A stretch of 64,000 nt of DNA from Gordonia sp. KTR9 (GTDB lineage: Bacteria; Actinomycetota; Actinomycetes; Mycobacteriales; Mycobacteriaceae), in assembly GCF_000143885.2 (NCBI RefSeq), contig NC_018581.1, positions 496,001 to 560,000 on the forward strand, in the 5' to 3' direction. The notes beneath the pieces were generated by a model, which ran no database searches, had not been told where the DNA came from, and saw nothing but the letters and a program-made list of their open reading frames with translations. A program made the position numbers and the translations under genes. Of the stretch, positions 8,831 to 28,950 are shown one piece after another (position 1 is the stretch's first letter; each line of letters opens with the position of its first letter).

Positions 8831-10417
8831 TCAGCTCTGCCGGTCCGGCTCGAGGTGCGGGCGTGCGAGAAGTGTCTCGATCCCGCGCCCGCGGAGTTCG
8901 ACGCCCTCGCCGATCTCCCAGTGCTCGGCTTCTTCGTGGGATGCCAGGAACACGGCGCGCGCCGACCCGAGAACGCGTGTGGGTTCGTCTTTCGCGAGTT
9001 CGGTCAGGCGGGCCGCCTCGTTGACCGGGTCGCCGATGACCGTGTACTCGAGTCGCTGTTCGGCGCCGATGTGTCCGGCGATTGCCTTGCCGGCCGACAC
9101 GCCGATGCCGATGTCGGTGTCACCGAGGGACTCGTAGAGCTCGGCGCGCAGCTCGCGCGCGGACGCGAGGGCGCGGCCGGCGAAGTCGTCGAGGTCGAGC
9201 GGAGCCCCGAAGATCGCGAGCGCGGCGTCGCCCTGGAACTTGTTGACGAACCCGCCATGGCGTCCGACGACACCGACGACGACCCGGAAGAACTCGTTGA
9301 GCAGCTCGACGATCTCGCGTGGCGGCCGGTTGACCGCCAGTCGCGTCGAGCCGACGATGTCGACGAACAGGACGCCGACGTACCGTTCCTCGCCACCGAG
9401 TTCGGTGCCGGTCTCTATCGCACGGCGCGCGACGTCTTCGCCGACGTAGCGGCCGAACAGGTTGCGCAGCTCCTGACGTTCGCGCAGGTCGGCGACCATG
9501 TCGTTGAACCCGGCCTGCAGCAGGCCGAGGTCGCTGCCGTCGTAGATCTTCACCGCGACGTTGAGGTCGCCCTCGCTGACCTTGGACTGCGCGCGGCGCA
9601 GCTGCTTGATCGGGTCGTTGATGGCGGCCACGACACGCACGATCGCGATGACGCTGAATGCGAGTGCGGAGATGGCCATCCACAGGATGGGGCGTTCCAG
9701 GCCGGTGGAGTCGGCCTCGATGATCCCGAGTCGATGCAGCACGATCATCCCGATGATCACCAGCATCGGAGCCACGACGCTGATCACCCAGAACGCGGTG
9801 ATACGGGTGGTGACGCTGGGCGCGATCGCGTTGTCGGGGTTGTTGGCCATGGCCGCGACGGTGATGGGCCGCATGACCTTCTCCGCCTGCATGTAGCTCA
9901 GCGCGCACGTGACCATCGCGCCGATCGTGCTGGCGATCGCGACGATGAAGGCGTTCTTCGACGACACGGTCAGGTTGACCAGTGTGAACAGCGTGCCGCC
10001 GACGACCCACAGCGCGGCGTTGACCGCCGTCAGCAGCATCGGCAGGGCGAGTGCGCGTCGTCGTGCGGCCTCGTTGTCGAGTCGGGTGCGGCGACGATGC
10101 CAGATGAGCACCGGCAGGGACAGCTGGATGCTGGCGAAGCCCCCGATGACCATGGCGATCAGCAGGTAGGCCGCGAAGATGACCTGGTTCAGCGCGGTGA
10201 TCTCGTCGAGGCTGATCGAGTCCTGGATCGGCATGCCGAAGCGCAGGAACGCGAAGGTGAACAGTGCGCCGACGAGGTTCGCCCGGAGCATGTCGAGTGC
10301 GAGAATCGGCCACGGCGTATGAATGAGCCATCGGGCCAGATGCAGGCCCTTTGACCACCGCGACCGTTGTTGAACCACGGAGACTACGGTAGCTGGCTGC
10401 TTGCAATCGTTAAACAC
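8831..10417 (-). CDS. class III adenylate cyclase with HAMP domain (Rv3645-like)
   Basis: A 528-residue membrane enzyme that makes cAMP from ATP. About six hydrophobic segments in residues 30-270 are followed by a HAMP linker (NDPIKQLRRAQSKVSEGDLN) and a cyclase domain from about 335. Metal aspartates are visible in LFVDIVGST (D353) and FQGDAALA (D397), with a substrate Lys at about 393. The block IGDPVNEAARL supplies the adenine-selecting D463 and the N466/R470 transition-state residues, so the domain looks catalytically complete. The start is GTG 10417, only 46 bp from divergent holB. The same topA/cyclase/holB order occurs at Rv3644c-Rv3646c. Confidence 0.92.
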   Translation of the reverse strand: MFNDCKQPATVVSVVQQRSRWSKGLHLARWLIHTPWPILALDMLRANLVGALFTFAFLRFGMPIQDSISLDEITALNQVIFAAYLLIAMVIGGFASIQLSLPVLIWHRRRTRLDNEAARRRALALPMLLTAVNAALWVVGGTLFTLVNLTVSSKNAFIVAIASTIGAMVTCALSYMQAEKVMRPITVAAMANNPDNAIAPSVTTRITAFWVISVVAPMLVIIGMIVLHRLGIIEADSTGLERPILWMAISALAFSVIAIVRVVAAINDPIKQLRRAQSKVSEGDLNVAVKIYDGSDLGLLQAGFNDMVADLRERQELRNLFGRYVGEDVARRAIETGTELGGEERYVGVLFVDIVGSTRLAVNRPPREIVELLNEFFRVVVGVVGRHGGFVNKFQGDAALAIFGAPLDLDDFAGRALASARELRAELYESLGDTDIGIGVSAGKAIAGHIGAEQRLEYTVIGDPVNEAARLTELAKDEPTRVLGSARAVFLASHEEAEHWEIGEGVELRGRGIETLLARPHLEPDRQS

Positions 10418-10451
10418 GGTTCCGTGTCTCAGGCGTGTCCGAACTGCGGAT

Positions 10452-10457
10452 TAGGGT
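10452..10457 (+). promoter_or_regulatory. -10 hexamer TAGGGT, leaderless promoter candidate for holB
   Basis: TAGGGT lies 6 nt before the holB GTG at 10464, inside the 46-bp divergent gap with the cyclase gene. There is no Shine-Dalgarno. Confidence 0.5.
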
Positions 10458-10463
10458 GTTGCT

Positions 10464-11750
10464 GTGACAAATGTCTTCGATCGGCTGACCGGGCAAGAGG
10501 CCATCGCCGACGATCTGCGGGCCGCCGCGCGTGCCGCTCGTGTGCTCGCGGTGAGGCTCGACGCGGGGACCTCGAACGACCTGTTCCTGCCCGACGACGA
10601 GATCCCGGCCGTCGACGCGGGGTGGTCGCGGGCGTCGATGACCCATTCGTGGTTGTTCACCGGACCGCCCGGCAGCGGTCGTTCGGTGGCCGCGCAGTGC
10701 TTCGCCGCGGCACTCCAGTGTCAGTCGCCCGACGCCGCGAACGTCGGCTGCGGCGAATGCCGCGCGTGCGTCACTGTCATGGCCAAGACCCACGCCGACG
10801 TCCGCCATGTGGTGCCGGAAGGGCTCAGTCTCGCCGTGGGGGCCATGCGCGACATCGTCCAGGCCGCCGCTCGCCGACCGGGGACGGGCCGGTGGCAGAT
10901 CGTGATCGTGGAAGATGCCGACCGGCTCACCGAGCAGGCCGCGAACGCCCTGCTGAAGGTCGTCGAGGAGCCGCCGTCGCGAACGGTGTTCCTGCTGTGC
11001 GCGCCGTCGGTCGACCCGGAGGACATCTCGGTGACGCTGCGGTCCCGCTGCCGGCACGTCGCACTCGTCACGCCGACGACCGCCGACATCGAGCGCGTCC
11101 TCGTCGAGCGTGACGGCCTCGACCCGGAGCAGGCGCACTGGGCCGCGTCGGTGTGCGGCGGCCACATCGGTCGTGCGCGTCGGCTGGCGACCGATCCCGA
11201 GGCGCGCACGCAACGCGAGAAGGCGCTCGGGCTGGCACGTGCCGCGGCCCGGGATTCGACGGCCTACGCCGCCGCCGAGGACCTGGTCCGGTCGGCCGAC
11301 GAGGCCGCCAAGGCGATCAGTGCCGAGCTCGACGTGGTCGAGACCGAGGAGATGAAGACCGCGCTGGGTGCGGGCGGTACCGGCAAGGGCACCGCACGGA
11401 TGCCGCGCGGTAGTGCCGGCGCGCTCAAGGAGCTGGAGAGGCGACAGAAGTCGCGGGCCACCCGGGTCGGGCGCGACGTCCTCGACCGCGCCCTGGTCGA
11501 CCTCGCCGCGCTCTTCCGCGACGCGCTCGTCGTCGGTGTGGGCGCTCAGGTCACTGCGATGCATCCGGACAAGGCCGAGGACATCGCGAACCCGCTCGCC
11601 GGCTACGCCAAGCCGGAGCAGCTGCTCCAATGTGTCGAGGCCGTACTCGCGTGCCGGGAGGCCCTCGACATGAACGTGAAGCCTAAGTTCGCCGTCGACG
11701 ACATGGTCGCGCGGATCGGACTCGCGCTCGCGCGACGGGTCGACGTGTAG
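10464..11750 (+). CDS. holB: DNA polymerase III subunit delta'
   Basis: A 428-residue AAA+ clamp-loader subunit. It shows the P-loop GPPGSGRS (about 66-73), a zinc module with CQS...CGECRAC (about 85-105), and EDADRLTEQAANALLKVVEE, the Walker B/sensor region in which delta' proteins lack full ATPase residues. SRCRH near 195 fits the SRC motif that donates an arginine finger to the neighbouring subunit. It loads the beta clamp during replication. The C-terminal collar domain runs from about 215 to the end. Confidence 0.93.
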   Translation: MTNVFDRLTGQEAIADDLRAAARAARVLAVRLDAGTSNDLFLPDDEIPAVDAGWSRASMTHSWLFTGPPGSGRSVAAQCFAAALQCQSPDAANVGCGECRACVTVMAKTHADVRHVVPEGLSLAVGAMRDIVQAAARRPGTGRWQIVIVEDADRLTEQAANALLKVVEEPPSRTVFLLCAPSVDPEDISVTLRSRCRHVALVTPTTADIERVLVERDGLDPEQAHWAASVCGGHIGRARRLATDPEARTQREKALGLARAAARDSTAYAAAEDLVRSADEAAKAISAELDVVETEEMKTALGAGGTGKGTARMPRGSAGALKELERRQKSRATRVGRDVLDRALVDLAALFRDALVVGVGAQVTAMHPDKAEDIANPLAGYAKPEQLLQCVEAVLACREALDMNVKPKFAVDDMVARIGLALARRVDV

Positions 11751-15577: not shown

Positions 15578-16750
15578 TCAGGCTGTGGAGTCCGTGGACT
15601 CGCCGCCGGAACCGGAGCTCCCGGAGCGGTCGCTCGATGCGGAGCCGTCGTCGCCCGATTCGGAACCGGTATGGCCTGCTGAGTCACCGGACTCCGAGTC
15701 GCGGGATTCCTCCGGCTGCCTGTCGTCGCCCTCATCGTCCGACTGCGAATCGGTGTCGGTGGTCGCACTGTCCTCGCGCTCGTCCGGCGTGCCCTCGACG
15801 CTGTCGGCATCGATGTCCGGCAGCGTGTCTCGATCCACTTGCCGCGGTTCCACGGGGTCGCGGGACGTCTCGACATCGGTTCCGGCGTCGGAAGTGGTGT
15901 CGCGCGTGTCGGTGTCGCGGGTGTCGGGGTTCGGCTCGATGGGCCGCCCCCGAGGTGGTTCGGCGGTGTCCGGCTCGCCGCGCGTGTCGACGTCGGTCCG
16001 TGGTGTCTCGTGAGGCCGTTCGGTTCTCGGGGGGACGCCGTCTCGTCCGAGCGACCTCAGGAGTGCCGAGACGAACGGGATGGTTTCGAGCCACGCCCGG
16101 ATACTCCACGGTCCCCGCGGATCTGACACCAGGACGATGACCGGCCCGCCGGTACTCGGCGGAGGGGTCAGGCTCGTGTTGCCGTCGGTCCCGCCCGGGC
16201 CGCCGGATGCCTGGGGATCGCCGGTGTAGACGACGAACGGGCTGTCCGCGTCCAGTCCGGCGATGACGGTCATCACCGCCAGGTTCTGTTGCACGGCGCG
16301 TTCTTTGGTCTCGTCGTCGAACTCCGTCGAGAGTACGGCGCGGGTGCTGGGGCCACTGACGATGATGGGGCCGATCGACTGCGGGTGGTCGATGACCACA
16401 GTCCGAGGTGCGCCCGTGACGGGCACGTCTCGTGCGATGAGCGAGCCGGAGTCGGTCGACGGCGCCGCGAGTGACGTGCCCGGCGAGGCGGTCCCGACCT
16501 CCGACGTCGGGGCGCGGCTCGGACCGAATGATGCGGTCGGTGATTGGGTGGACACCTGGACGGTGGCCGGCACGGCGAAGGCGTGTACCAGAGTGGTGGT
16601 GTTGATCGACGCGACTGCCGTCGGGATCACCGTGCAGAGCGAGAGCGCGGCGAGGGTGAGGGACGTGCCGGCGAAACCCGAGGGTCGCCGAAGAGGACCG
16701 ACGCCGTCGTTGTCGACGGCGCGGTGCGTGCCGCGCCGATGTGATGCCAC
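15578..16750 (-). CDS. secreted or membrane-anchored protein with long acidic Ser/Asp/Thr-rich tail
   Basis: A 390-residue protein of unknown function. A hydrophobic segment (GFAGTSLTLAALSLCTVIP, about residues 23-41) acts as signal peptide or anchor. The extracytoplasmic part has a folded-looking middle with TVVIDHPQSIGPIIVSGPST and QNLAVMTVIAGLDADSPF. The last ~130 residues are disordered and dominated by Asp, Glu, Ser and Thr with DTR/DTD repeats. The GTG at 16750 was chosen because the purine-rich AGAGGGGACC precedes it and upstream codons lack gene character. It is convergent with the PhyH gene, 22 bp apart. Confidence 0.65.
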   Translation of the reverse strand: MASHRRGTHRAVDNDGVGPLRRPSGFAGTSLTLAALSLCTVIPTAVASINTTTLVHAFAVPATVQVSTQSPTASFGPSRAPTSEVGTASPGTSLAAPSTDSGSLIARDVPVTGAPRTVVIDHPQSIGPIIVSGPSTRAVLSTEFDDETKERAVQQNLAVMTVIAGLDADSPFVVYTGDPQASGGPGGTDGNTSLTPPPSTGGPVIVLVSDPRGPWSIRAWLETIPFVSALLRSLGRDGVPPRTERPHETPRTDVDTRGEPDTAEPPRGRPIEPNPDTRDTDTRDTTSDAGTDVETSRDPVEPRQVDRDTLPDIDADSVEGTPDEREDSATTDTDSQSDDEGDDRQPEESRDSESGDSAGHTGSESGDDGSASSDRSGSSGSGGESTDSTA

Positions 16751-16907
16751 CCCTGGGTCCCCTCTTTGTCGCTCAGATAGTAGACGATGCACGGGGGGCA
16801 TGGTGTCGTCTGAATGACGCAAATCGGGACATCTACGCGACGCGCCGGGGTCGTAACTGTTCGAACGTCGCTCGGCGGTCGTCGAAGGCACGAAGCCGGG
16901 ACAGAAA
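16751..16907. other. intergenic region between secreted protein gene and tRNA-Thr
   Basis: This stretch holds the upstream region of the minus-strand secreted protein gene and the 3' flank of the minus-strand tRNA. Small frames running through it are low in gene character. I see no clear promoter or terminator. Confidence 0.4.
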
Positions 16908-17987: not shown

Positions 17988-18569
17988 CTACCCGGAGTCG
18001 CGACGACGGAATTCGACGCCACGAGGCGACAGTTCGTAACCGACGACGAGGCTGTCGGTCAGTCCGAGCTTCTTGAGCTTGGTGATGTCCTGCTTCAATC
18101 CTGCTCTCTCCCGGCCGAGTTCGGCCGCGAGATCGGTCGACACCACACCGGGGCGGCGGGCGATGACGTCGAGGACTTCGCGCGTCCACGGTCCGCGCGT
18201 GGAGCGCGCGTCCATCCGATCGAGGCGGGTCCGGATCTCGTCCACATCGTCGTCGGACAGATTGTCATCGGCGCGCAGAGCGATCCGCGGGTCCTCGCCG
18301 ATGCACTGCAGTCCGATCCGGTAGGTCGGGTTGTGGACGTTGACGCACAAGGTGGCCCGCACGGCGTCCGCGTCGTCGAAGCCTGCGCGACGCGCTTCGT
18401 CCGGTGTGATCCGTTCGGGGTCGACGCGCTCCAGGGACGTCACCTCGATCACGTGCGTGAGCGCTATGAAGCTCGAGCCCGGATGGATGCGCGGATGGCC
18501 CCATCGCCGGAAGGCGAGGTCGACGGTTCCGTCGGCGACCCCGCGAACGACTGCGGCCGTGAGAAGCAC
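17988..18569 (-). CDS. ASCH-like domain protein with C-terminal winged-helix segment
   Basis: A 193-residue cytoplasmic protein. The N-terminal half (VLLTAAVVRGVADGTVDLAF, then RIHPGSSFIALTHVIEVTSL) has the layout of the PUA-related ASCH fold, proposed to bind RNA or modified nucleotides. The C-terminal ~70 residues (RGPWTREVLDVIARRPGVVS, then KQDITKLKKLGLTDSL) look like a winged helix. GTG 18569 was preferred over the longer frame because TAAGGT lies 8 nt upstream, a leaderless-type promoter. Its substrate is unknown. Confidence 0.72.
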   Translation of the reverse strand: MLLTAAVVRGVADGTVDLAFRRWGHPRIHPGSSFIALTHVIEVTSLERVDPERITPDEARRAGFDDADAVRATLCVNVHNPTYRIGLQCIGEDPRIALRADDNLSDDDVDEIRTRLDRMDARSTRGPWTREVLDVIARRPGVVSTDLAAELGRERAGLKQDITKLKKLGLTDSLVVGYELSPRGVEFRRRDSG

Positions 18570-18577
18570 AGTCTTCG

Positions 18578-18583
18578 ACCTTA
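18578..18583 (-). promoter_or_regulatory. -10 hexamer TAAGGT, leaderless promoter candidate
   Basis: On the minus strand TAAGGT ends 8 nt before GTG 18569. There is no Shine-Dalgarno for that start. Confidence 0.45.
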
Positions 18584-18790
18584 GCGAGCGGGTCGATGTC
18601 GTGCATGACCTGCGGTCCGACGTGCGTGTCACCTCTGTGGATGACAGCTGAGAGGCCGCTGAGAGCTGTTGTAGGGTGACCCGAGGTCAGCGACGGCAAT
18701 GCCGACGTATTCGGGGGACCCCCTGCGTCGTGCCGTCGTCGAGCGCAACTTCACGACGACATGATCACCGGCCGGGGGGAGGGATCTTTG

Positions 18791-19666
18791 GTGCCGCCAC
18801 GTGTTCCCGCATTGTGGTTTCCCGACGTCCCGCCGTGGCCCGCCTTCGAGGCGACACCCGCCGCCGATCTGGCCGCTCACCTGGCCCGACACCATTCCGT
18901 ACGCCCAGCTCACACCACTTCGCAGCCAGCGGCGGTGGCCGTCCTCGAGCGTCCGGTGCCGGTGGTCGAGGAGCCGACCCGGGCCCCGGCCCGCGCGGTG
19001 GACGCAGCGGCTCCCCGTCCCTCGTCCGAGCTCGACGCGTTCTTGGCCGAAGCCGAGAAGTCGGTGCGTGCGAAGCGCAAGAACGGGCCGGTCACGCGCG
19101 GAGAACGCCGCTCGGGTTTCGGTTCACCACTACGAATCGCGGGTGCGGCAGCGGCGATTGTTGTGATTGTGGCCACAGTTCTGGGCGTGTTTCTCACTCA
19201 AGGCAGCGAGCCCGCTCCGACGACTGCGTCAGCATCGAGCAGCGATGCCGCTGACTCTTCGATGCCGTCCACGTCGGCTGTCGCGAGTGAGCCTGCCTGT
19301 ACGCAGCGTCCGGTGGGGTCGGGGACCACGGTGTCCGACGGTGACGACGCCGGCAACCAGGAGTCGGGCGCCGGAGCGATCCGTGCGTTCAACCACGCCT
19401 ACTACGTGTTGCGTTCGGCGAGGGCGGCCCGCGCTGTCGCGGCCCCTGGCGCGGTGGCCTCCGAGTATGTGATGCAGCAGTACATCAACCAGCGACCGCT
19501 CGGGACCCGGCACTGCCTGATCGTCTCCGACCGCGGGCCCGGCGAGTACTCGGTCGTGCTCACCGAACTGCAGCCCGACGCTGCGCCCATCACCTATCGC
19601 CAGGTCATCCGCACGACGACCACCGGCGGCAAGTCCTACATCCAGTCCATCAGGTCTGTCGAATGA
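18791..19666 (+). CDS. single-pass membrane protein with DUF8176-like extracytoplasmic domain
   Basis: A 291-residue type II membrane protein. Layout: a Pro/Ala-rich cytoplasmic N-terminus, a basic stretch (SVRAKRKNGPVTRGERR), one transmembrane helix (about 114-136), a Ser/Thr-rich linker, then a ~100-residue C-terminal domain with IRAFNHAYYVLRSARAAR, GTRHCLIV and ITYRQVIRT. That domain resembles the actinobacterial DUF8176 type, recalled from memory. The start is GTG 18791 because GGGGGAGGG lies 7-8 nt upstream; ATG 18761 lacks one. It heads a plus-strand run of six genes ending at 23244 and is 45 bp from the next gene. Confidence 0.75.
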   Translation: MPPRVPALWFPDVPPWPAFEATPAADLAAHLARHHSVRPAHTTSQPAAVAVLERPVPVVEEPTRAPARAVDAAAPRPSSELDAFLAEAEKSVRAKRKNGPVTRGERRSGFGSPLRIAGAAAAIVVIVATVLGVFLTQGSEPAPTTASASSSDAADSSMPSTSAVASEPACTQRPVGSGTTVSDGDDAGNQESGAGAIRAFNHAYYVLRSARAARAVAAPGAVASEYVMQQYINQRPLGTRHCLIVSDRGPGEYSVVLTELQPDAAPITYRQVIRTTTTGGKSYIQSIRSVE

Positions 19667-19711
19667 GTTCCCGCCCAGCCTGTTCCGGGCACCGAGAGAG
19701 GTAGAAGCACC

Positions 19712-20890
19712 ATGAGTCATAGTCGGGGTCGGCATCGGAAGCGTCGTGTGCCGAGTGGTCCGTTGTTGTCGGTGACGTCGGCGGTTGTCGCTGTGTCGAT
19801 CACCGCGGGTGCGGGAGCGGCGTTGGCGGTGCCGGAGCAGGGCGGGACCAGCCCTGGTGACACGGCGCCCGGTCAGGGCGGTACGAGTCCGGGGGATGTG
19901 TCCCCCGACGGTGGTGCGGGTGCCGAGGCGACGGTCGAGCCGATCGTGGTGCCCGGTCCGGGCAGTATCCCGGGTCCGCCGGTGGAGGCGCCGTATCAGG
20001 CGTATACCGCGCCGGGGTCGCAGTCCTATGACGAGCCCTACACTCCGCTGATCAACAATCGGGTGGCTCCTCGTGTTGCTCCGCCGGTCCGGCCGATCGC
20101 GCCGCCGCCGGAGAAGATCCGTGTGGGCAACTTCGTGTCCGACATCCCGGAGGGTATGTCGAAGCGGGATGTGAACTCGATCAACGCGTGGTCGGCGTAC
20201 GGCGAGGCGAAGATCGCGCAGGGTTTGATCTCTGCCGGTGTTCCCGAGGATGAGGCCACCCGCCGTGCTGCCGCCACGATCATCGGTGTGATGGCCGGTG
20301 GCACCGCAGGTGCTGTCGCGCTTGGTATTCCGTCGGCGGTTGTGGGTGCGGGAGTAGGTGCGATCACTGGGGCCACTATCGGGACAAGTCTAGGCGGACA
20401 AGGAATTGCAGGCGCTGGGATCGGCGCCGCGGTCGGCGGTGTGGGAGCTGGAGCCGCGGGTGCTGCGGTTGGCGCGGCCATTGGCGGTACTACAGGCGGT
20501 CTCTTGGCCTATGCGCTAGGCGCGGGTGACCCTGGCGCGAACCCGGATGAGCCGTGGCGTCAGAACGGTCCACGCCATGCGCTGCCTGACACTGACGGGC
20601 CGAACCAATTTGAGTTCCACCTGACACCTGAGCACGCGCGGCGCTCTGGACTGCCCGCTGTCGACTACGTGGTCAATCACCGCGGCGACGTAGACGCGAA
20701 AGTTGGGACCTCTACTTTCGGCTGGTCAGGTCTTCAAGCCCGCTCGCCCTACGCCGTATTCGGTCCACAAGTCGAGAAATCGGTTCGTGATTGGACGCGA
20801 GGGCAGGGAGAGAGTTTGAGGACCGCGATCCCAGGCAGCGACATCGCCTGGCCTTCCGAAGACGCGGGCGCGGATGCAGCCGAACACTAA
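19712..20890 (+). CDS. exported glycine-zipper protein with mosaic C-terminus
   Basis: A 392-residue protein. A signal peptide ends near residue 40 (GAGAALAVPE). A Pro/Gly linker contains the repeated phrase QGGTSPGD. Residues 130-200 form a conserved-looking domain (KIRVGNFVSDIPEGMSKRDV). A long glycine zipper follows (about 190-270, repeats of AGxGIGAAVGGV type) that could insert in or oligomerise on a membrane. The last ~110 residues are polar (RHALPDTDGPNQFEFHLTPE). Codon GC content falls visibly from about position 20340 onward, inside the zipper, so the 3' half may have a different history. RBS GAGAGAGG. Function unknown. Confidence 0.75.
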   Translation: MSHSRGRHRKRRVPSGPLLSVTSAVVAVSITAGAGAALAVPEQGGTSPGDTAPGQGGTSPGDVSPDGGAGAEATVEPIVVPGPGSIPGPPVEAPYQAYTAPGSQSYDEPYTPLINNRVAPRVAPPVRPIAPPPEKIRVGNFVSDIPEGMSKRDVNSINAWSAYGEAKIAQGLISAGVPEDEATRRAAATIIGVMAGGTAGAVALGIPSAVVGAGVGAITGATIGTSLGGQGIAGAGIGAAVGGVGAGAAGAAVGAAIGGTTGGLLAYALGAGDPGANPDEPWRQNGPRHALPDTDGPNQFEFHLTPEHARRSGLPAVDYVVNHRGDVDAKVGTSTFGWSGLQARSPYAVFGPQVEKSVRDWTRGQGESLRTAIPGSDIAWPSEDAGADAAEH

Positions 20891-20910
20891 CGAGAGTGAG
20901 TTGAGTTTTG

Positions 20911-21399
20911 ATGTCGAAACGTCTTGTGGTTGTGTTGGCCACGATTGCTGCCGTGCTCGCCGGATTGATCTCTGGATCGGGTGAAGGCGCCGCAGCACCC
21001 GAACTGCAGAGAATCTCGATAAATGGTGACCGGTTTGCGACAGTGGGAAACCACTCGCTCTGCAATGGCGAACTCCGCGTTAGTCTCACTGCGGCTCCGA
21101 GGAAACCCGGCTTCGTCCGGGTCGGACTCACATCCTACGGATTTAGCGGGCAGGGGCCGAGCTGGAAGCGTAATCCGGTGTGCAAGCTGTTGATCGGCGC
21201 GGTGCACACCAGCGCGATCGGTTACGCGCAATGGAGTTTCTTCAACGCGGATTTCGGTCCGAAACGTGGGCAGAAGGTGGTTCGCGACATCAGGACGGGA
21301 TCCGGTGTGGTCGAACTTCAGTTGTCGTCGTACGCACGCAACAACCCGATCCGTGTACGGCAATCACTCGGCCTGTCGTATTACATGCTGGTGCCTTAG
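20911..21399 (+). CDS. small secreted two-cysteine protein, paralogue 1 of 3
   Basis: A 162-residue exported protein with a clear signal peptide ending near AAAP (about residue 29). The mature domain has VGNHSLCNGELRV, GFSGQGPSWKRNPVCKLL, FGPKRGQKVVRDIRTGSG and a C-terminal YYMLVP. Two Cys (HSLC and NPVC) are conserved in the three tandem copies and probably form a disulfide. I do not recognise a named family. GC content is lower than that of the flanking housekeeping genes. It lies 20 bp after the glycine-zipper gene. Confidence 0.75.
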   Translation: MSKRLVVVLATIAAVLAGLISGSGEGAAAPELQRISINGDRFATVGNHSLCNGELRVSLTAAPRKPGFVRVGLTSYGFSGQGPSWKRNPVCKLLIGAVHTSAIGYAQWSFFNADFGPKRGQKVVRDIRTGSGVVELQLSSYARNNPIRVRQSLGLSYYMLVP

Positions 21400-21504
21400 C
21401 TCTGCGACGGCTCGTGATCTGACCTGGTACCAGGATAAAGCCGACAAATTGGAGCAGCGACGCCATCCGTGCGGCTGTCTTCCCTTATTGCGAGGATGAC
21501 ACGT

Positions 21505-21990
21505 ATGAAAAGAGCAATCCTGTGCCTGGGGGTCGCCGTCCTTGCACTTGCTAGCGCCGTGTCGGGCGTAGGACAGGCGTCTGCTGCGCCGATGCAGAAT
21601 TTCAGCACGAACGGCACGACGTTCGGGACATTTGGTGACCATTCCTTCTGTCGCGGCGCCATTACATACAGAGTCGATGCGGTGGCGAAGAAACGTGGAG
21701 TGGTTCGGGTCACCGCGACTTCGCACGGCTTCTCAGGTCAGGGTCCGAGCTGGGTTCGCAGTCCGAAATGTCGCTTCCTTTTTCGCTCCGCTACCACGAG
21801 CGTGCGCGGGATCGATCTGGAGGAGTGGACGGTTGGTTCCTTTGGGCCGAGACCAGGGCAGAAGCAGACGTGGCACGTCGTGACCGGCTCCGGCCCCGCT
21901 TGGATGGGCATCACTACCTATGCCGTCAACAGTGCCGTTCGCATCCTGCAATCCCCTGCGGGACCCTCCTTCTTCATGACGGTGCCCTAG
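21505..21990 (+). CDS. small secreted two-cysteine protein, paralogue 2 of 3
   Basis: A 161-residue exported protein with a signal peptide (MKRAILCLGVAVLALASAVS ... ASAAP). It shares the frame of its neighbours: FGDHSFCRGAI, GFSGQGPSWVRSPKCRFL, FGPRPGQKQTWHVVTGSG and the end FFMTVP. It is clearly homologous to paralogues 1 and 3 but diverged through much of its length, so this is an old duplication. The ATG at 21505 has GAGGA 8 nt upstream; 21496 is an alternative. Function unknown. Confidence 0.75.
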   Translation: MKRAILCLGVAVLALASAVSGVGQASAAPMQNFSTNGTTFGTFGDHSFCRGAITYRVDAVAKKRGVVRVTATSHGFSGQGPSWVRSPKCRFLFRSATTSVRGIDLEEWTVGSFGPRPGQKQTWHVVTGSGPAWMGITTYAVNSAVRILQSPAGPSFFMTVP

Positions 21991-22050
21991 TGGCACTAAC
22001 GGACTCTTCCAGAAAATTGCAACGGAGTTGAGATGAAGGAGCTTGTCAAA

Positions 22051-22533
22051 ATGAAGCGATTGCTTGCGACCTTGGTGGTCAGTCTTGTCGTTGGTGCATT
22101 GTGCATAGCGTGCGCTGGCCGGGTGTCCGCGGCTCCGATTCCCCAGGTTTCGACTACCGGCTACAACTTCGGGATATTCGGTGACCACTCCTACTGTCGG
22201 GGTGCGGTGAACGCTACTGTGGATGCGCCCCAGGGTAAGCAGGGTGTCGTCAGGGTCACGGTGCGCTCGCACGGGTTCACTGGTGCAGGCGCGAGTTGGA
22301 AGCGTAATCCCAAGTGCCGAGTGTTGTTCGGGAACTACTACACCAGCGTTCGGGGTTACAATCTGGAAAAGTGGGTCAGCGCAACGTTCGGCCCACGAGC
22401 AGGCGAGAAAAAGGTCTGGGACATCAACACCGGCTCAGGTCCGGTCAGTCTGGGCTTCGGTGGCTTCTCGCCCAACAGCCCGGTACGCGTCCCTTCCGGC
22501 TACGGTTCGACCATCTACATGCTCGTCCCGTAA
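22051..22533 (+). CDS. small secreted two-cysteine protein, paralogue 3 of 3
   Basis: A 160-residue exported protein with a signal peptide ending VSAAP. It has the family motifs FGDHSYCRGAV, GFTGAGASWKRNPKCRVL, FGPRAGEKKVWDINTGSG and YMLVP. It is closest in motif detail to paralogue 2 in the N-terminal half and to paralogue 1 around SWKRNP. AAGGAG lies 9 nt before ATG 22051, so the upstream ATG 22033 is not needed. Its stop is 3 nt before the next ATG, implying one mRNA with the ParA-like gene. Confidence 0.75.
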   Translation: MKRLLATLVVSLVVGALCIACAGRVSAAPIPQVSTTGYNFGIFGDHSYCRGAVNATVDAPQGKQGVVRVTVRSHGFTGAGASWKRNPKCRVLFGNYYTSVRGYNLEKWVSATFGPRAGEKKVWDINTGSGPVSLGFGGFSPNSPVRVPSGYGSTIYMLVP

Positions 22534-22536
22534 GAG

Positions 22537-23244
22537 ATGAACAACCCGACCACACCACGCGACGGCGACCCGCAGGCCTGGGCCGAGCGGGCGGTCGTCG
22601 TGTGCGGGACGGCAGGCGGCGTTGGTACGTCGGTTGTTTCGGCTTTGCTTGCCGAGCACCGGGCGTCGTCGACGCTCGGGCTTCTGTCGTGGTGGGTCGA
22701 CGCGTCGGGCAACGACTGTGACATCGAGCTGCGATTGCGTGGCTCGGGAAATCAAGAACTGCTGCGTACGGCGTCGGGGACGGGGTTGTGGCTCCCGCCC
22801 GACGATGCGACGGTCACCGACGCTGTCGTCGAGACCTGGCGGCAGGGCGCCGTTCCCGTCGTCGACGCCGGCGCACATCCGCTCACGTTGCTGCCTGAGC
22901 TCGCCGAAGACGATCTCCCGAACCTCACGCCGGTGCTCGTCATCGCGGCGAGACCAGACCTGCTCAACCGCGCGCGCGTCGTCTTCACCGAATGGGACCG
23001 GGCAGGCGTACTGGAAAAGACGATCGTCGTCATCTCCTCGCAGTTGCCGACCACGCACAACGACGGACTTGCCGACATGCTGGTCAGTGTGGTGTCGGGC
23101 GCGGTCGGTGGCGTGATCGGCCTCGACTACGACCCCGTCATCGGCGCGGGTACCGCCCTCGACCACGATGTCCGACGCGGGTTCCTCCCGGCGACACACC
23201 AATCGATCGCGACACTCGCCGCCGCGACCACCAATCGGAGCTGA
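22537..23244 (+). CDS. ParA/MinD-like protein with degenerate P-loop
   Basis: A 235-residue cytoplasmic protein with the overall fold order of deviant-Walker ATPases: VVVCGTAGGVGTSVVSALLA, then WWVDASGNDCDIEL, VPVVDAGAH and VLVIAARPDLLNRARVVF. The canonical KGGxGK[ST] is AGGVGTS here: both lysines are missing, as in some CpaE/TadZ-like and secretion-associated relatives. It may bind nucleotide weakly or act as a scaffold. It is tightly linked (3 nt) to the secreted paralogues, suggesting a role in their export or localisation rather than chromosome partition; that is inference. Confidence 0.7.
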   Translation: MNNPTTPRDGDPQAWAERAVVVCGTAGGVGTSVVSALLAEHRASSTLGLLSWWVDASGNDCDIELRLRGSGNQELLRTASGTGLWLPPDDATVTDAVVETWRQGAVPVVDAGAHPLTLLPELAEDDLPNLTPVLVIAARPDLLNRARVVFTEWDRAGVLEKTIVVISSQLPTTHNDGLADMLVSVVSGAVGGVIGLDYDPVIGAGTALDHDVRRGFLPATHQSIATLAAATTNRS

Positions 23245-23294: not shown

Positions 23295-23966
23295 ATGACC
23301 GGCTCCACTCGCTCACCGCTCACTCCCGCACAGGCCGCCGAGATGGTGGCCGATCCGTGGCGCGTGATCGCCGACAGACTCGCGGCCGCCTACAAAACCG
23401 GGTCGATGGTGCGCGGTGGTGAGTTCGTCGCCAAGATCATCGACGCCGCCGAGGAAGCGAATCACCACCCCGACATCGACTTCCGTTACGGCACGGTGCA
23501 TCTCGTGCTGACGACACACAGTGCGCACCAGTTGACGGAAGCCGATGTCGCGCTGGCCAACAAGATCACCGGCATCGCCACCGACCTCGGTCTCGAACCG
23601 GCCGCCGAACCCGTCACCCAGTTCAACCTGGCCATCGACGCCCTCGACATCCCGGCCATCAGGCCCTTCTGGAAAGCCGTGCTCGGCTACGGCGAGGCCA
23701 CCGAACGCGAGCCCGTCGACCTCGTCGATCCCGCCGGCCGACTACCCAGCGTCTGGTTCCAGCAGATGGACGAACCGCGCCCGCAGCGCAGCCGGATGCA
23801 CGTCGACCTGTGGGTCCCCACCGACGAGTTGCACGAGAGGTTGCAGTCGGCGATCACCGCCGGCGGACAACTGCTCACCGACGAGTACGCCCCCGCGTTC
23901 TGGGTGCTCGCCGATGCCGAGGGCAACGAGGTGTGCCTGTGCACCTGGCAGGACCAGAACTACTGA
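23295..23966 (+). CDS. pterin-4a-carbinolamine dehydratase-VOC fusion protein
   Basis: A 223-residue two-domain protein. Residues about 10-100 are a PCD/DCoH domain with the diagnostic ANHHPDIDFRYGTVHLVLTT and LTEADVALANKI, which dehydrates 4a-hydroxytetrahydropterin. Residues about 105-223 are a VOC (glyoxalase-like) domain with FWKAVLGYGEATEREPVDLV and an end VLADAEGNEVCLCTW. No aromatic amino-acid hydroxylase gene is nearby. ATG 23295 is chosen; GTG 23271 is in frame with a weaker case. It meets the convergent GntR gene with no gap. Confidence 0.85.
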   Translation: MTGSTRSPLTPAQAAEMVADPWRVIADRLAAAYKTGSMVRGGEFVAKIIDAAEEANHHPDIDFRYGTVHLVLTTHSAHQLTEADVALANKITGIATDLGLEPAAEPVTQFNLAIDALDIPAIRPFWKAVLGYGEATEREPVDLVDPAGRLPSVWFQQMDEPRPQRSRMHVDLWVPTDELHERLQSAITAGGQLLTDEYAPAFWVLADAEGNEVCLCTWQDQNY

Positions 23967-24789: not shown

Positions 24790-25533
24790 ATGCGCACAAC
24801 TGATGACGCCACCACACCCGCACGCAAAGGTGCAGACACCACCACATCCACCAGCGGTGTTTCACCGGTCCAACTCGTCGTCTTCGACATGGCCGGCACC
24901 ACCATCGTCGACGACGGGCTGGTCACCCAGGCTTTCGAGGTCGCCGCGACCGCGGTCGGCATCCCCGAGCACGGCGAGGAGCGCGACCGTGCCCGAATCT
25001 ATGTCCTCGACACGATGGGCCAGTCCAAGATCGCCGTCTTCCGCGCTCTGCTGGGCTCCGACGACGCGGCCCGGCGAGCCAACGAGGCGTTCGAACAGGC
25101 CTACGCCGAGCTGATCGCCGACGGTGTCGACGCGATCCCGGGGGCGGTGGAGACCTTTGCCGACCTCCGATCGCGCGGCATCGCAACGGCATTCACCACC
25201 GGATTCAGCCCTGCCACGCAGCAACGGATCCTGGACTCGCTCGGATGGGCCGACGCGGTCGACCAGGTTCTCGCCCCCACCGCCGGTCTGCGCGGCCGCC
25301 CCTACCCGGACCTGGTCCTCGCGGCTGCTCTCACCGCCCAGGTCGACGACCTGGCCAACGTGGTGGTCGTCGGCGACACCGCGAGCGACATCGAGACCGC
25401 CCGACGTGCTCGTGCCGGTCTGTCAGTCGGCGTGCTCACCGGGGCGCACGACGAGCAGGCCCTTCTCGACGCGGGTGCAGACCGTGTCCTGGCGTCCGTC
25501 GCCGACCTGACCGCCCTGATCACCACCCCCTGA
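24790..25533 (+). CDS. phosphonatase-like HAD hydrolase
   Basis: A 247-residue haloacid dehalogenase-superfamily enzyme. Motif I is VVFDMAGTTIVDDG, the DMAGTT form shared with phosphonoacetaldehyde hydrolase (PhnX). Motif II is FTTGFS and motif IV VVVGDTASDIETARRA. The cap Lys that forms a Schiff base in PhnX cannot be placed with confidence, so it belongs to the phosphonatase-like group found with phosphonate transporters. It probably removes phosphate or cleaves the C-P bond of an imported phosphonate metabolite. ATG 24790 is downstream of operator 2, which rules out the in-frame upstream start at 24739. Confidence 0.85.
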   Translation: MRTTDDATTPARKGADTTTSTSGVSPVQLVVFDMAGTTIVDDGLVTQAFEVAATAVGIPEHGEERDRARIYVLDTMGQSKIAVFRALLGSDDAARRANEAFEQAYAELIADGVDAIPGAVETFADLRSRGIATAFTTGFSPATQQRILDSLGWADAVDQVLAPTAGLRGRPYPDLVLAAALTAQVDDLANVVVVGDTASDIETARRARAGLSVGVLTGAHDEQALLDAGADRVLASVADLTALITTP

Positions 25534-25581
25534 TCCGCTCCTCACCCCGACCCCCGTGACGTCCCGAAAGGTTGACCCCCG

Positions 25582-26547
25582 ATGACAATTCGTAAGTCCT
25601 CGCTGGCGATCACTGCCGCTCTCGCCACCACCGCCCTCGTGCTCGCCGGATGTTCCGGTGGCGAATCCGAGGCCGTCAACGACAACGGCTTCCCCGAAAC
25701 CCTCACTCTCGCCGCGATCCCGGCGGAGAACTCCACCGATCTCAAAGCCAGTTACGACCCGGTCATCAAGGTGATCGAGCAGGAAACCGGTTCGAAGGTC
25801 GAGTTCGTCCAGGCCTCCGATTACGCGGGCGTCGTCGAGGGCATGATCGCCGACAACGTCGATCTCGCCTTCTTCGGCCCGTTCGCCTACGTGGTCGCCG
25901 GCCTCAACGGCGCCGAGATCACCCCGCTCGGTGCGGTGGTGTCGGAGAAGGGCGCCGAACCGGGATACCAGTCATACGGAATCGCGAAGGCGGACAACGC
26001 GTCGGTGAACGGCATCAAGGACTTCGCGGGCAAGACGGTGTGTTTCGTCGATCCCGGTTCCACCTCGGGCTTCCTGTACCCGAGCGCCGGTCTCATCGAG
26101 GCGGGCGTCATCAAGTCCGGCACCGAGACCGACCTCGCCGCGGGTGTCACGCCGATCTACGCGGGCGGGCACGACGCGTCGGCGCTGTCGGTCGCGTCCG
26201 GTGACTGCGAAGCCGGCTTCGCCTTCGACTCGATGGTCGACGAGACCCTCGTCGAGAAGGGCGATCTCCAGCAGGGACAGCTGAAGACGGTCTGGAAATC
26301 GGAGATGATCGCGGGATCAGTCTTCGCGGCAAACAATTCGCTCGGACCCGAGGCCATCGACACCCTCACCAAGGTCTTCACCGAGAAAGTCAACAAGGAG
26401 TCCATGGAAGCGGCGGGGTTCTGCTCGGGCGATGAGTGCCTGATCACCGACGAGCGCGCGTGGGGCGTCGTGCCTGCCTCCGACGACGATTACGCCGGTG
26501 TCCGGCATGTCTGTGAGGTCACCAAATCCGAGAAGTGTGCGAGCTGA
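25582..26547 (+). CDS. phnD: phosphonate/phosphate/phosphite ABC transporter substrate-binding lipoprotein
   Basis: A 321-residue lipoprotein. The lipobox LVLAGC gives a lipidated Cys at about residue 24. The mature part has PhnD-family motifs: IPAENSTDLKASYDPVIKVI, NVDLAFFGPFAYV and CFVDPGSTSGFLYPS, the last being the loop that holds the phosphonate or phosphite oxyanion. Two further Cys near the C-terminus (CSGDEC) may pair. It is the second gene of the operon, 48 bp after the hydrolase, with GAAAGG upstream. The ligand may be a C2 aminophosphonate, judged from the catabolic neighbours only. Confidence 0.92.
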   Translation: MTIRKSSLAITAALATTALVLAGCSGGESEAVNDNGFPETLTLAAIPAENSTDLKASYDPVIKVIEQETGSKVEFVQASDYAGVVEGMIADNVDLAFFGPFAYVVAGLNGAEITPLGAVVSEKGAEPGYQSYGIAKADNASVNGIKDFAGKTVCFVDPGSTSGFLYPSAGLIEAGVIKSGTETDLAAGVTPIYAGGHDASALSVASGDCEAGFAFDSMVDETLVEKGDLQQGQLKTVWKSEMIAGSVFAANNSLGPEAIDTLTKVFTEKVNKESMEAAGFCSGDECLITDERAWGVVPASDDDYAGVRHVCEVTKSEKCAS

Positions 26548-27358
26548 CGTGGCCGCGCAGCCACCGGTCGCCGGCGACGATCTCGTCGTTCATGTCGACG
26601 GACTCACCAAGAGATTCGGCAACACGCTCGCGGTCGACGGCGTGTCGCTCGATGTCCGCCGCAGCGAACTCGTCGTGCTCCTGGGCCTGTCCGGCTCCGG
26701 CAAGTCCACATTCCTCCGCTGCCTGAACGGCTTGCATCCGGCGAGCAGCGGGGTCGTCGACGTCGTGGGGCGCCGGGTGGATCTCGCCGGTCGCGCCGAG
26801 ATGCGAGCACTGCGGCGCGAAGTCGGTTTCGTCTTCCAGCATTTCAACCTCGTCGGCCGGATCAGTTGCCTGGAGAACGTGCTGCTGGGCGGGCTCGGGC
26901 GGTTGCGGTGTCCTCGCTACGGTGCGCTGACGTACCCGAAGCGCATGCGGCAGGAAGCGTTGGAGCATCTCGATCGCGTGGGTCTCGCCGACCTCGCCGA
27001 TCGTCGCGCCGACACCCTCTCCGGCGGACAGCAGCAGCGCGTGGCCATCGCGCGCACGCTGATGCAGAAGCCGGTGCTGCTGCTCGCCGACGAACCCGTG
27101 GCCTCCCTGGACCCGGAGAATGCCGGCGTCGTCATGGATCTGCTGTTCCAGGTGTGCGTCGAGGAGAAGCTGACCATCCTCTGCACCCTGCACCAGGTGG
27201 ATCTGGCGCTCGGTTGGGCGCACCGCATCGTCGGGTTGCGGGGCGGGCAGAAGGTTCTCGACCGCTCCACGGTCGGCCTCGATCGCGACGAGGTGATGGA
27301 CGTCTATCAGCGGGTCGACCCGGTGGCGGCGTCGTCGAACGCGGTACGACGCCGATGA
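26537..27358 (+). CDS. phnC: phosphonate ABC transporter ATP-binding protein
   Basis: A 273-residue ABC ATPase. It has Walker A GLSGSGKS, Q-loop VFQHFNLV, signature LSGGQQQR, Walker B VLLLADEPVASLDP and switch His in CTLHQVDLA. The GTG at 26537 overlaps the phnD 3' end by 11 bp; GTG 26549, just after the phnD stop, is a possible alternative. The stop overlaps the phnE ATG (ATGA). It energises uptake through the fused PhnE permease. Confidence 0.93.
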   Translation: MRADVAAQPPVAGDDLVVHVDGLTKRFGNTLAVDGVSLDVRRSELVVLLGLSGSGKSTFLRCLNGLHPASSGVVDVVGRRVDLAGRAEMRALRREVGFVFQHFNLVGRISCLENVLLGGLGRLRCPRYGALTYPKRMRQEALEHLDRVGLADLADRRADTLSGGQQQRVAIARTLMQKPVLLLADEPVASLDPENAGVVMDLLFQVCVEEKLTILCTLHQVDLALGWAHRIVGLRGGQKVLDRSTVGLDRDEVMDVYQRVDPVAASSNAVRRR

Positions 27359-28950
27359 ACACCCCGTTCCTGGACCGTCCGCGGGCGGGATCGCCATCCC
27401 GGATGCGACCCGGGTGGGACCGTGCGGTCCTGCCCGGGATCGCGGTCGGCGGTCTCGTCGCCACGCTGATCTGCGCCTGGTGGATCGACTTCGCGCCTGC
27501 GACGCTGATCTACGGCATCGAGGACATCGTCGCGCTCATCGAGCGGATGCTGCCACCACGGCTCGGAGATCCCGGGCGGATCAGCGTGTTGGCGCTCGAG
27601 ACACTGCTGATGGCTGTGCTGGGAACCGTTCTCGCCGCAGTCGCTTCGGTTCCGCTGGCGTTCCTGGCCGCTCGCAACACCAGCCCCCACCCTGCGGTCC
27701 AGGCCGTGGCGCGCGGCGTCATCACCTTCTGTCGTGCCATGCCCGACCTGTTGTTCGCGGTACTGTTCGTCCGCGCTCTGGGTATCGGTGTGCTGCCCGG
27801 CATCCTGGCCCTGGCGCTGCATTCGATCGGCATGCTGGGCAAGCTGTTCGCCGACGCGATCGAGCAGGTCGACGACGGGCCACGCGAAGCGGTACGCAGC
27901 ACCGGCGTCGGATACGGGCGTGAGATGATCAATGCCGTCGTCCCGCAGTGCGTTCCGGCGTGGATCGGTGCGTTCGTCTATCGCATCGACATCAACCTGC
28001 GGATGTCGGTCGTCCTCGGTTTCGTCGGGGCGGGTGGCATCGGGTTCGCGCTCCAGGACGCCCTGCGCGGTCTGATCTACCCACGTGCGCTCGGGATCGT
28101 CCTGGTCATCCTCGTGATCATCACGGCAATGGAATTGCTGGCCATCGGCATACGGCGTGTGCTGCTGACACCGTCGCCGATGCGGCCGGGTCTCGAACGC
28201 GCGGTCCGTACGGGTTTCGGGCTGCTCGTGGCCGTGGCGACCGTCGCGGCAATGGTCGTACTGGAGATCACGCCCTGGGCACTGGTCGCGTGGATACCAC
28301 CTGCCGTCGAGGTGTTCGGGCGCATGATCCCGCCCGATTTCACCGCTCTCGGAACAGAACTGTTCGACGCCGTGGTCCAGACGGTCGCGATCGGCGTGGT
28401 CTCGACCGCCATCGGTGTCGTGTTGTCGATCCCGGTCGGAATCCTCGCTGCTCGCAACGTCACCCCGCACCCGGGTGTGTATTGGGCGGCGCGGACCTGG
28501 ATTCTCTTCGTCCGGGCGGTGCCGGAACTCATCCTCGCCGTGGTGTTCGTCGCGGCGCTGGGGTTGGGCCCGGTGGCGGGAACCTGTGCGCTGGCAATCG
28601 GTTCCGTCGGCTTCCTGGCCAAGCTCGTCGCCGACTCCGTGGAGGAAACGGATCCGGGTCCCGTCGAGGCCGCCCGCTCGGTCGGTTGTGGTTGGTGGAA
28701 AACGCTGTTCGCAGCGGTGATCCCGCAGGCCATGCCGTCCATCGTCGGATCGGGGCTGTATCTGCTCGACGTCAACATCCGCACGTCCACGGTCCTGGGG
28801 ATCGTGGGGGCCGGCGGAATCGGCTTCCTGCTGTTCGAGTCGATCCGCACGCTGGACTTCGAGGTCGCCGGGGCCATCGTGCTCGTCATCTTCGTCATCG
28901 TCTTCGCCATCGAAAGGTTGTCCGGTTGGATACGCTCACGACTGGTCTGA
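27355..28950 (+). CDS. phnE: phosphonate ABC transporter permease, tandem PhnE fusion
   Basis: A 531-residue membrane protein made of two PhnE-type permease domains in one chain. The first has the EAA-like loop IEQVDDGPREAVRSTGVGYG and FVGAGGIGFALQD; the second has VEETDPGPVEAARSVGCGWW and IVGAGGIGFLLFE. Each half carries about six hydrophobic helices. Most PhnE proteins are single-domain homodimers, so this fusion encodes the whole transmembrane pore. ATG 27355 overlaps the phnC stop (ATGA). Confidence 0.93.
   Translation: MNTPFLDRPRAGSPSRMRPGWDRAVLPGIAVGGLVATLICAWWIDFAPATLIYGIEDIVALIERMLPPRLGDPGRISVLALETLLMAVLGTVLAAVASVPLAFLAARNTSPHPAVQAVARGVITFCRAMPDLLFAVLFVRALGIGVLPGILALALHSIGMLGKLFADAIEQVDDGPREAVRSTGVGYGREMINAVVPQCVPAWIGAFVYRIDINLRMSVVLGFVGAGGIGFALQDALRGLIYPRALGIVLVILVIITAMELLAIGIRRVLLTPSPMRPGLERAVRTGFGLLVAVATVAAMVVLEITPWALVAWIPPAVEVFGRMIPPDFTALGTELFDAVVQTVAIGVVSTAIGVVLSIPVGILAARNVTPHPGVYWAARTWILFVRAVPELILAVVFVAALGLGPVAGTCALAIGSVGFLAKLVADSVEETDPGPVEAARSVGCGWWKTLFAAVIPQAMPSIVGSGLYLLDVNIRTSTVLGIVGAGGIGFLLFESIRTLDFEVAGAIVLVIFVIVFAIERLSGWIRSRLV

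Follow-up and report, generated by a model that had tools for sequence, protein, structure and literature searches.

A six-gene cassette at a shared chromosomal site

We analysed a window of 64,000 nucleotides of the Gordonia sp. KTR9 chromosome (NC_018581.1, positions 496,001 to 560,000 of the forward strand), in which six open reading frames (ORFs), all on the + strand, occupy positions 18791-23244 in the order g1-g2-pA-pB-pC-g6. On the 5.44 Mb chromosome (genome G000, sequence C2) this cassette starts at C2:514791. Its intergenic gaps of 45, 20, 105, 42 and 3 bp agree with the original prediction, made from the letters of the window, of six genes in one direction separated by 3-105 bp. The start of pB was set at 21505; most analyses used 21508, with which the third gap becomes 108 bp.

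The first gene, g1 (18791..19666), encodes a single-pass membrane protein with one hydrophobic segment (residues 108-142) and a conserved, predicted extracytoplasmic C-terminal domain at about residues 165-291. No Pfam family matched it above cut-off, and the likeness to DUF8176 suggested for it was not recovered, that family being absent from the matches of g1 and 23 relatives at E values up to 1. One of 24 g1 members matched VirB8 (E=0.019), a hint only, as the g1 of the window itself did not match.

The second gene, g2 (whole ORF 19712-20890), encodes 392 residues, 39 of them prolines, with a signal-like segment and two glycine zipper segments (186-227 and 231-258), in line with the features first read from its translation. 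It comprises a constant part (residues 1-212; 19712..20347) with the signal peptide, a proline-rich stalk and zipper helix 1; a hypervariable loop between the zipper helices (residues 213-245; 20348..20446); and zipper helix 2 followed by a variable C-terminal domain, the C-domain (residues 246-392; 20447..20887), where synonymous divergence rises and trees conflict, as described below. The motif GxxxG occurs 13 times in residues 183-275, against a mean of 8.5 in shuffled sequences (P=0.027); enrichment over the level expected from a glycine-rich composition is thus only modest. General glycine-zipper models matched some g2 relatives (Gly-zipper_Omp 12 of 60, Gly-zipper_YMGG 3 of 60).

The three p genes, pA (20911..21399, directly 3' of g2), pB (21505..21990) and pC (22033..22533, with an alternative ATG start at 22051), encode homologous, putatively secreted proteins that are 41-49% identical to each other (E values of 3e-40 to 5e-53), with signal peptides that we read by eye. 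Many public records name this family enoyl-CoA hydratase, a database name which no Pfam match supports and which we rejected. We also rejected membership in DUF6764: the matches were weak, the one inspected covered residues 4-52, mostly signal peptide, and a DUF6764 search of the same genome omitted the p genes. Against the PDB, a profile search with p gave nothing significant and a single-sequence search only a match to a tail spike at E=0.016; profile searches with g2 and g1 likewise gave nothing significant.

The last gene, g6 (22537..23244), encodes a ParA/MinD-like protein whose P-loop reads CGTAGGVGTS and, as had been noticed, is without both lysines. Active ParA/MinD ATPases have a Walker A motif with a signature and a catalytic lysine, a feature that g6 does not share. 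The lysine-less loop (GTAGGVGTS in the window) is conserved in chromosomal and plasmid copies: in 16 of 18 aligned rows, which cover the full motif, neither lysine is present, and none occurs in the visible part of the other two. Beside the P-loop, residues including D55, R66 and the RPDLLNR-type positions are invariant. Kinship with ParA is weak, with CbiA/ParA matching 3 of 18 members (best E 0.097), PDB profile matches over the P-loop at E 0.19-0.9, none of them significant, and no match in a single-sequence PDB search. We therefore regard g6 as most likely a conserved pseudo-ATPase. The positioning role first proposed for it is speculative, and the missing lysines argue against an ordinary ParA ATPase cycle.

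None of the six proteins had a Pfam or NCBIfam match above the curated cut-off, PADLOC and PHROGs gave no match either, and no family library had a name for a system of p and g2. Together with the open-access literature, in which we found no system of this layout, these searches agree with the initial impression that none had been described. A promoter and terminator scan gave no signal exceeding shuffled sequences.

We surveyed 101 genomes, this one and 100 relatives, at E<=0.001 and found p in 28, g2 in 32, g6 in 29 and g1 in 32 of them. All 28 genomes with p also have g2, 27 have all four families, and every match lies in the same genus, save one of g1. Among 397 genomes across the order, p was found in 5 and g2 in 17; some genomes, G306 and G446 among them, have both families, yet on different contigs. 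The order g1-g2-(p)n-g6 recurs at one shared chromosomal site in 11 other Gordonia genomes, and for that reason is not due to chance. The same two genes border the cassette in 10 of these loci, the eleventh (G014) being split over two contigs: upstream, a winged-helix-like protein (17988..18632, - strand) and, downstream, a pterin carbinolamine dehydratase/glyoxalase-like protein (23295..23966, + strand), which we regard as borders of the site and not as parts of the system. The number of p copies at the site is 3 in the window and 3, 3, 2, 2, 1, 4, 0 (with a remnant), 5, 3, 1 and 1 elsewhere. Conserved co-occurrence and a variable number of paralogues, which the original prediction had proposed to look for, are thus both seen in Gordonia.

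Across 61 g2 loci, g1 adjoins g2 in 51, and further chromosomal loci carry g1-g2-(p)-g6 at other positions. Independent occurrence of the homologues, which the original prediction had named as counting against it, is found in part: nine of the 61 are satellite loci without g1 and g6 (seven of these nine have p in the stretch examined), some loci hold only p, and most plasmids have g1-g2 without p. The survey of the 101 genomes supports the conclusion that the six genes belong together, though as separable modules.

Several related genes lie elsewhere. Six other chromosomal g1-g2-g6 loci (L087, L091, L093, L100, L109 and L111) have p genes of a separate branch 3' of g6 on the opposite strand. 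Contig C1 of the same genome carries a divergent g1-g2-like pair (L097, ~9499-11019), with a longer g2 (554 amino acids) and a different C-terminus, and no transfer-gene match in 20 kb. Genes resembling p also occur away from g2, at L098 (5583-6023) and L099 (5155-5595) on C2 and at L134 (5318-5758), with 89-92% identity over 154 amino acids between this genome and G019; the L098 and L099 copies have related genes upstream of them (89% identity), as though gene and p copy had moved together. Farther out in the window lie a long ORF with a repetitive Ser/Asp/Glu-rich tail and no Pfam match (15578-16891, - strand) and a cluster that, judged by eye from translations, resembles genes for phosphonate uptake and use (substrate-binding protein, ABC ATPase and permeases; 24790-28950).

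Exchange of the 3' half of g2

In five related genomes or species, amino acid identity of g2 is 0.95-1.00 by segment over residues 1-212, and residues 166-212 are identical (proportion of nonsynonymous differences, pN, 0.000; of synonymous differences, pS, 0.375). The loop falls to a mean identity of 0.57, with changes in length and a pN of 0.293, and the C-domain averages 0.78. Synonymous divergence shifts at the same point, pS being 0.26-0.38 up to residue 212 and 0.65-0.73 beyond it (0.65-0.68 in residues 246-392), compared with 0.41 in g1 and 0.34 in g6. Trees of residues 1-212 and of residues 246 to the end, built from 12 intact g2 sequences of 10 genomes (the broken or cut copies L080_12957, L083_7591, L084 and G014 being excluded), reject each other in the approximately unbiased test (P=2.3e-6 and 7.7e-4).

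The same division is found between g2 copies of one genome. In G022 the copies are 99-100% identical at the nucleotide level over residues 1-212 and 49-81% identical after, and G019, G032 and G037 show the same split, with the constant part at 0.92-1.00 by segment; in G058, G026, G042 and G028 it is weaker or absent. Nucleotide identity drops at about nt 600-720 of the gene in five of five within-genome pairs (four genomes), and homology sets in about 20 bp 5' of the start codon in four of the five. When 60 proteins of the 120 relatives listed were compared pairwise, 35 pairs had a constant part at least 0.95 identical, and the loop was at most 0.66 identical in 32 of these and the C-domain at most 0.85 in 31; the exceptions include a plasmid protein pair that is uniform throughout, and the split was not seen between the plasmid clusters compared.

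Because within-genome breakpoints, the jump in pS, the conflict between trees and the pairwise comparison agree, recombinational exchange of the 3' half of g2 in chromosomal genes is well supported. The pattern is one of replacement of the back half, consisting of loop, helix 2 and C-domain, by recombination joining at the helix-1 coding region. One g2 copy of G022, at L080 (10418-12102), is truncated at about residue 302, with an orphan 3' fragment about 1.3 kb further on.

The p genes beside g2

In 30 cases p lies directly 3' of a g2 C-domain, whether of a gene or of a fragment. The three orphan 3' fragments of g2 (two in G002, one in G022) each have a p gene about 100-133 bp downstream, and in G018, G010 and the second copy of G019 g2 is broken and the p gene after it intact. 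In the window, pA groups with a p of G022 and the p set of G016, on another branch than pB and pC. As pA holds the place after g2 that the orthologue of pB has in G057, G048 and G012, where orthologues of pC lie just 5' of g6, pA looks like a new module inserted ahead of older p genes, by analogy with CDI (contact-dependent inhibition) as described in the excerpted account of PMC3150448. Distances between C-domains track those between adjacent p genes beyond what the constant part accounts for (partial r 0.26, P 0.0008, 22 pairs), although physical linkage alone could cause this. The adjacent p is inherited together with the C-domain, for which linkage might suffice.

The loop is the fastest region of g2, and it can change without a matching change in C-domain or p: between L112 and L101 the p distance is 0.05, the C-domain distance 0.08 and the loop distance 0.60. 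This would suit an ordinary surface protein diversified under pressure from phages or predators, with p as companion wall proteins. We consider this improbable, as it leaves unexplained both the p genes after orphan g2 3' fragments and the retention of g1 and g6 with g2, and no phage record matched g2.

The arrangement resembles CDI and Rhs systems, for which the same excerpt describes orphan modules of C-terminal toxin and immunity genes (PMC3150448). Common to both are a constant front with an exchangeable back half, a small downstream partner gene, orphan 3' fragments with partner genes and extra partner copies; g2 has a constant N-terminal and an exchanged C-terminal part, as polymorphic toxin systems in general do. 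In contrast, the cassette has no CdiB, no huge CdiA and no VENN boundary (a CdiB transporter beside a large CdiA was found neither in the cassette nor in the flanking ORFs), its C-domains stay homologous where CDI and Rhs swap unrelated toxins, and its partner p carries a signal peptide. The Cdz proteins of Caulobacter are contact bacteriocins with glycine zippers, which, according to the excerpt of PMC5380434, are exported and possibly surface-bound, a likeness to g2. The differences are that g2 is 392 residues long and carries a Sec-like signal, and that p, apart from its signal, is free of transmembrane segments; neither the cassette nor the scanned neighbours contain small zipper peptides accompanied by genes for type I secretion.

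Conjugative plasmids and a possible contact role

Outside the chromosome, g2 is present in 21 of 72,556 plasmid records, all of Gordonia. We examined the regions of nine of these and of one Rhodococcus plasmid; in all nine Gordonia regions g1-g2 lie near annotated transfer genes or, in pPAE01, a homologue of one. Plasmid clusters such as those of pKB1 and pCP86 have g1-g2 in the same order as the cassette, and pCP86, p1 and pGOR1 also have g6, in the order cutinase, g1, g2, g6, DUF6668 and then genes resembling a type IV secretion system (T4SS). They differ by adding cutinase, SCO6880, M23/SLT enzyme and VirD4-like genes, and the chromosomal loci by mostly having p. The same strain carries g1-g2 within T4SS-like clusters on contigs C3 and C4, which from their size and gene content are probably plasmids. 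With 19 plasmid transfer proteins as queries, homologues were found in 22 of the 61 g2 loci, but neither within the window nor at the chromosomal sites; the cassette is without the coupling protein, relaxase and channel genes that accompany a conjugative T4SS. The family is thus shared with conjugative plasmids, where g1-g2(-g6) sit in transfer clusters, and the chromosomal cassette would work with no transfer genes nearby. An intact p is present in 6 of the 22 loci with transfer homologues and in 30 of the 39 without (Fisher P 0.0003, a guide only, as the loci are related).

One explanation of this kinship is that a conjugative element once integrated here and that the cassette is a neutral remnant of it, preserved by chance, its homologues being parts of transfer clusters and G+C content at third codon positions being lower in the g2 3' half and p (0.61-0.71) than in g6 (0.81) and the downstream gene (0.87). 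We judge this very improbable in view of the retention of this site in 11 further genomes and of purifying selection in g1, g6, pB and pC (dN 0.03-0.14 against dS 0.46-1.12).

A stronger contender, though still unlikely on balance, is mating compatibility or exclusion without killing, in which the identity of chromosomal g2 and p would gate plasmids or partners, like with like or as decoys of plasmid-borne g2. Its basis is the plasmid records, the transfer genes or homologues in all nine regions and the presence of the family both on the chromosome and in two T4SS-like clusters of one strain. Moreover, Mid (Msmeg0070) of M. smegmatis, as described in the excerpted text of PMC9040860, is a polymorphic, proline-rich, membrane-associated protein of about 388 residues that decides conjugal compatibility in a mycolic-acid bacterium; g2 is likened to it by description. 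That text places Mid in the esx1 locus and describes no zipper in it. The cassette is not that locus, because 1.34 Mb separate it from the EccC gene of the ESX system (C2:1858612), which together with the lack of p from most plasmid loci speaks against this explanation.

The reading we favour, tentatively and without holding it to be probable, is a polymorphic cell-surface contact system for self/non-self recognition, with g2 displayed and p as its protective partner. The original prediction had proposed that the zipper protein inserts into a membrane and that the paralogues protect or partner it, as parts of a contact system; this is now better supported, because g2 is modular and polymorphic, whereas separable modules and sharing with plasmids had not been foreseen. 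In the proposed mechanism, g2 would be exported, its zipper hairpin sitting in the cell's own mycomembrane or in a neighbour's membrane, and g1 as membrane anchor and g6 as pseudo-ATPase may handle the constant front of signal, stalk and helix 1. The p protein would act outside the cytoplasm as a partner of g2, most likely protecting the producer from g2 of its own kind, and extra p copies could be leftovers or additional protection against other alleles. The loci of G018, G010 and G019 at which g2 is broken and p intact speak for such an immunity role, and the confinement of p to genomes with g2 (28 of 28) favours the contact reading.

Several results weigh against this contact system. A toxic or recognition activity of g2 is putative only, and none of 60 g2 members scanned had a toxin domain, apart from one weak match to Bacteriocin_IIc (E=0.013). 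The C-domains at the window site are 65-97% identical and so remain homologous, unlike those of CDI and Rhs, which rules out an unrelated-fold C-terminal toxin in each allele. The loop does not track p overall (partial P 0.15; P 0.017 within the window site, 11 pairs). In addition to its scarcity in conjugation-type loci, p has no intact copy in the stretch examined in 9 of the 39 stand-alone g2 loci. Four of the 101 genomes have g2 without p (G003, G023, G056 and G033, the last with a weak g2 match only), and in G023, a draft genome, an intact-looking g2 stands beside a p remnant, which speaks against strict immunity. The expectation for an obligatory antidote, that g2 never occurs without p, therefore fails.

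Among polymorphic systems whose C-terminal halves are swapped, the best known are CDI and Rhs in Gram-negative bacteria; to our knowledge, little has been learnt of comparable systems in bacteria that have a mycolic-acid outer membrane. The cassette has its exchange logic in common with CDI and Rhs; what is distinctive is that the swap centres on a glycine-zipper hairpin, that the partner itself appears to be exported and that the machinery genes are common to conjugative plasmids. It is conceivable, if rather doubtful, that chromosome and conjugative plasmids have one self/non-self recognition system of mycolic-acid bacteria in common, in which the chromosome would carry a polymorphic relative of a plasmid surface protein, with swappable tips and secreted partners that determine whether a plasmid or neighbour is accepted, excluded or harmed. 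The cassette makes it testable whether mycolic-acid bacteria decide at their surface which cells to attack and which to accept DNA from.

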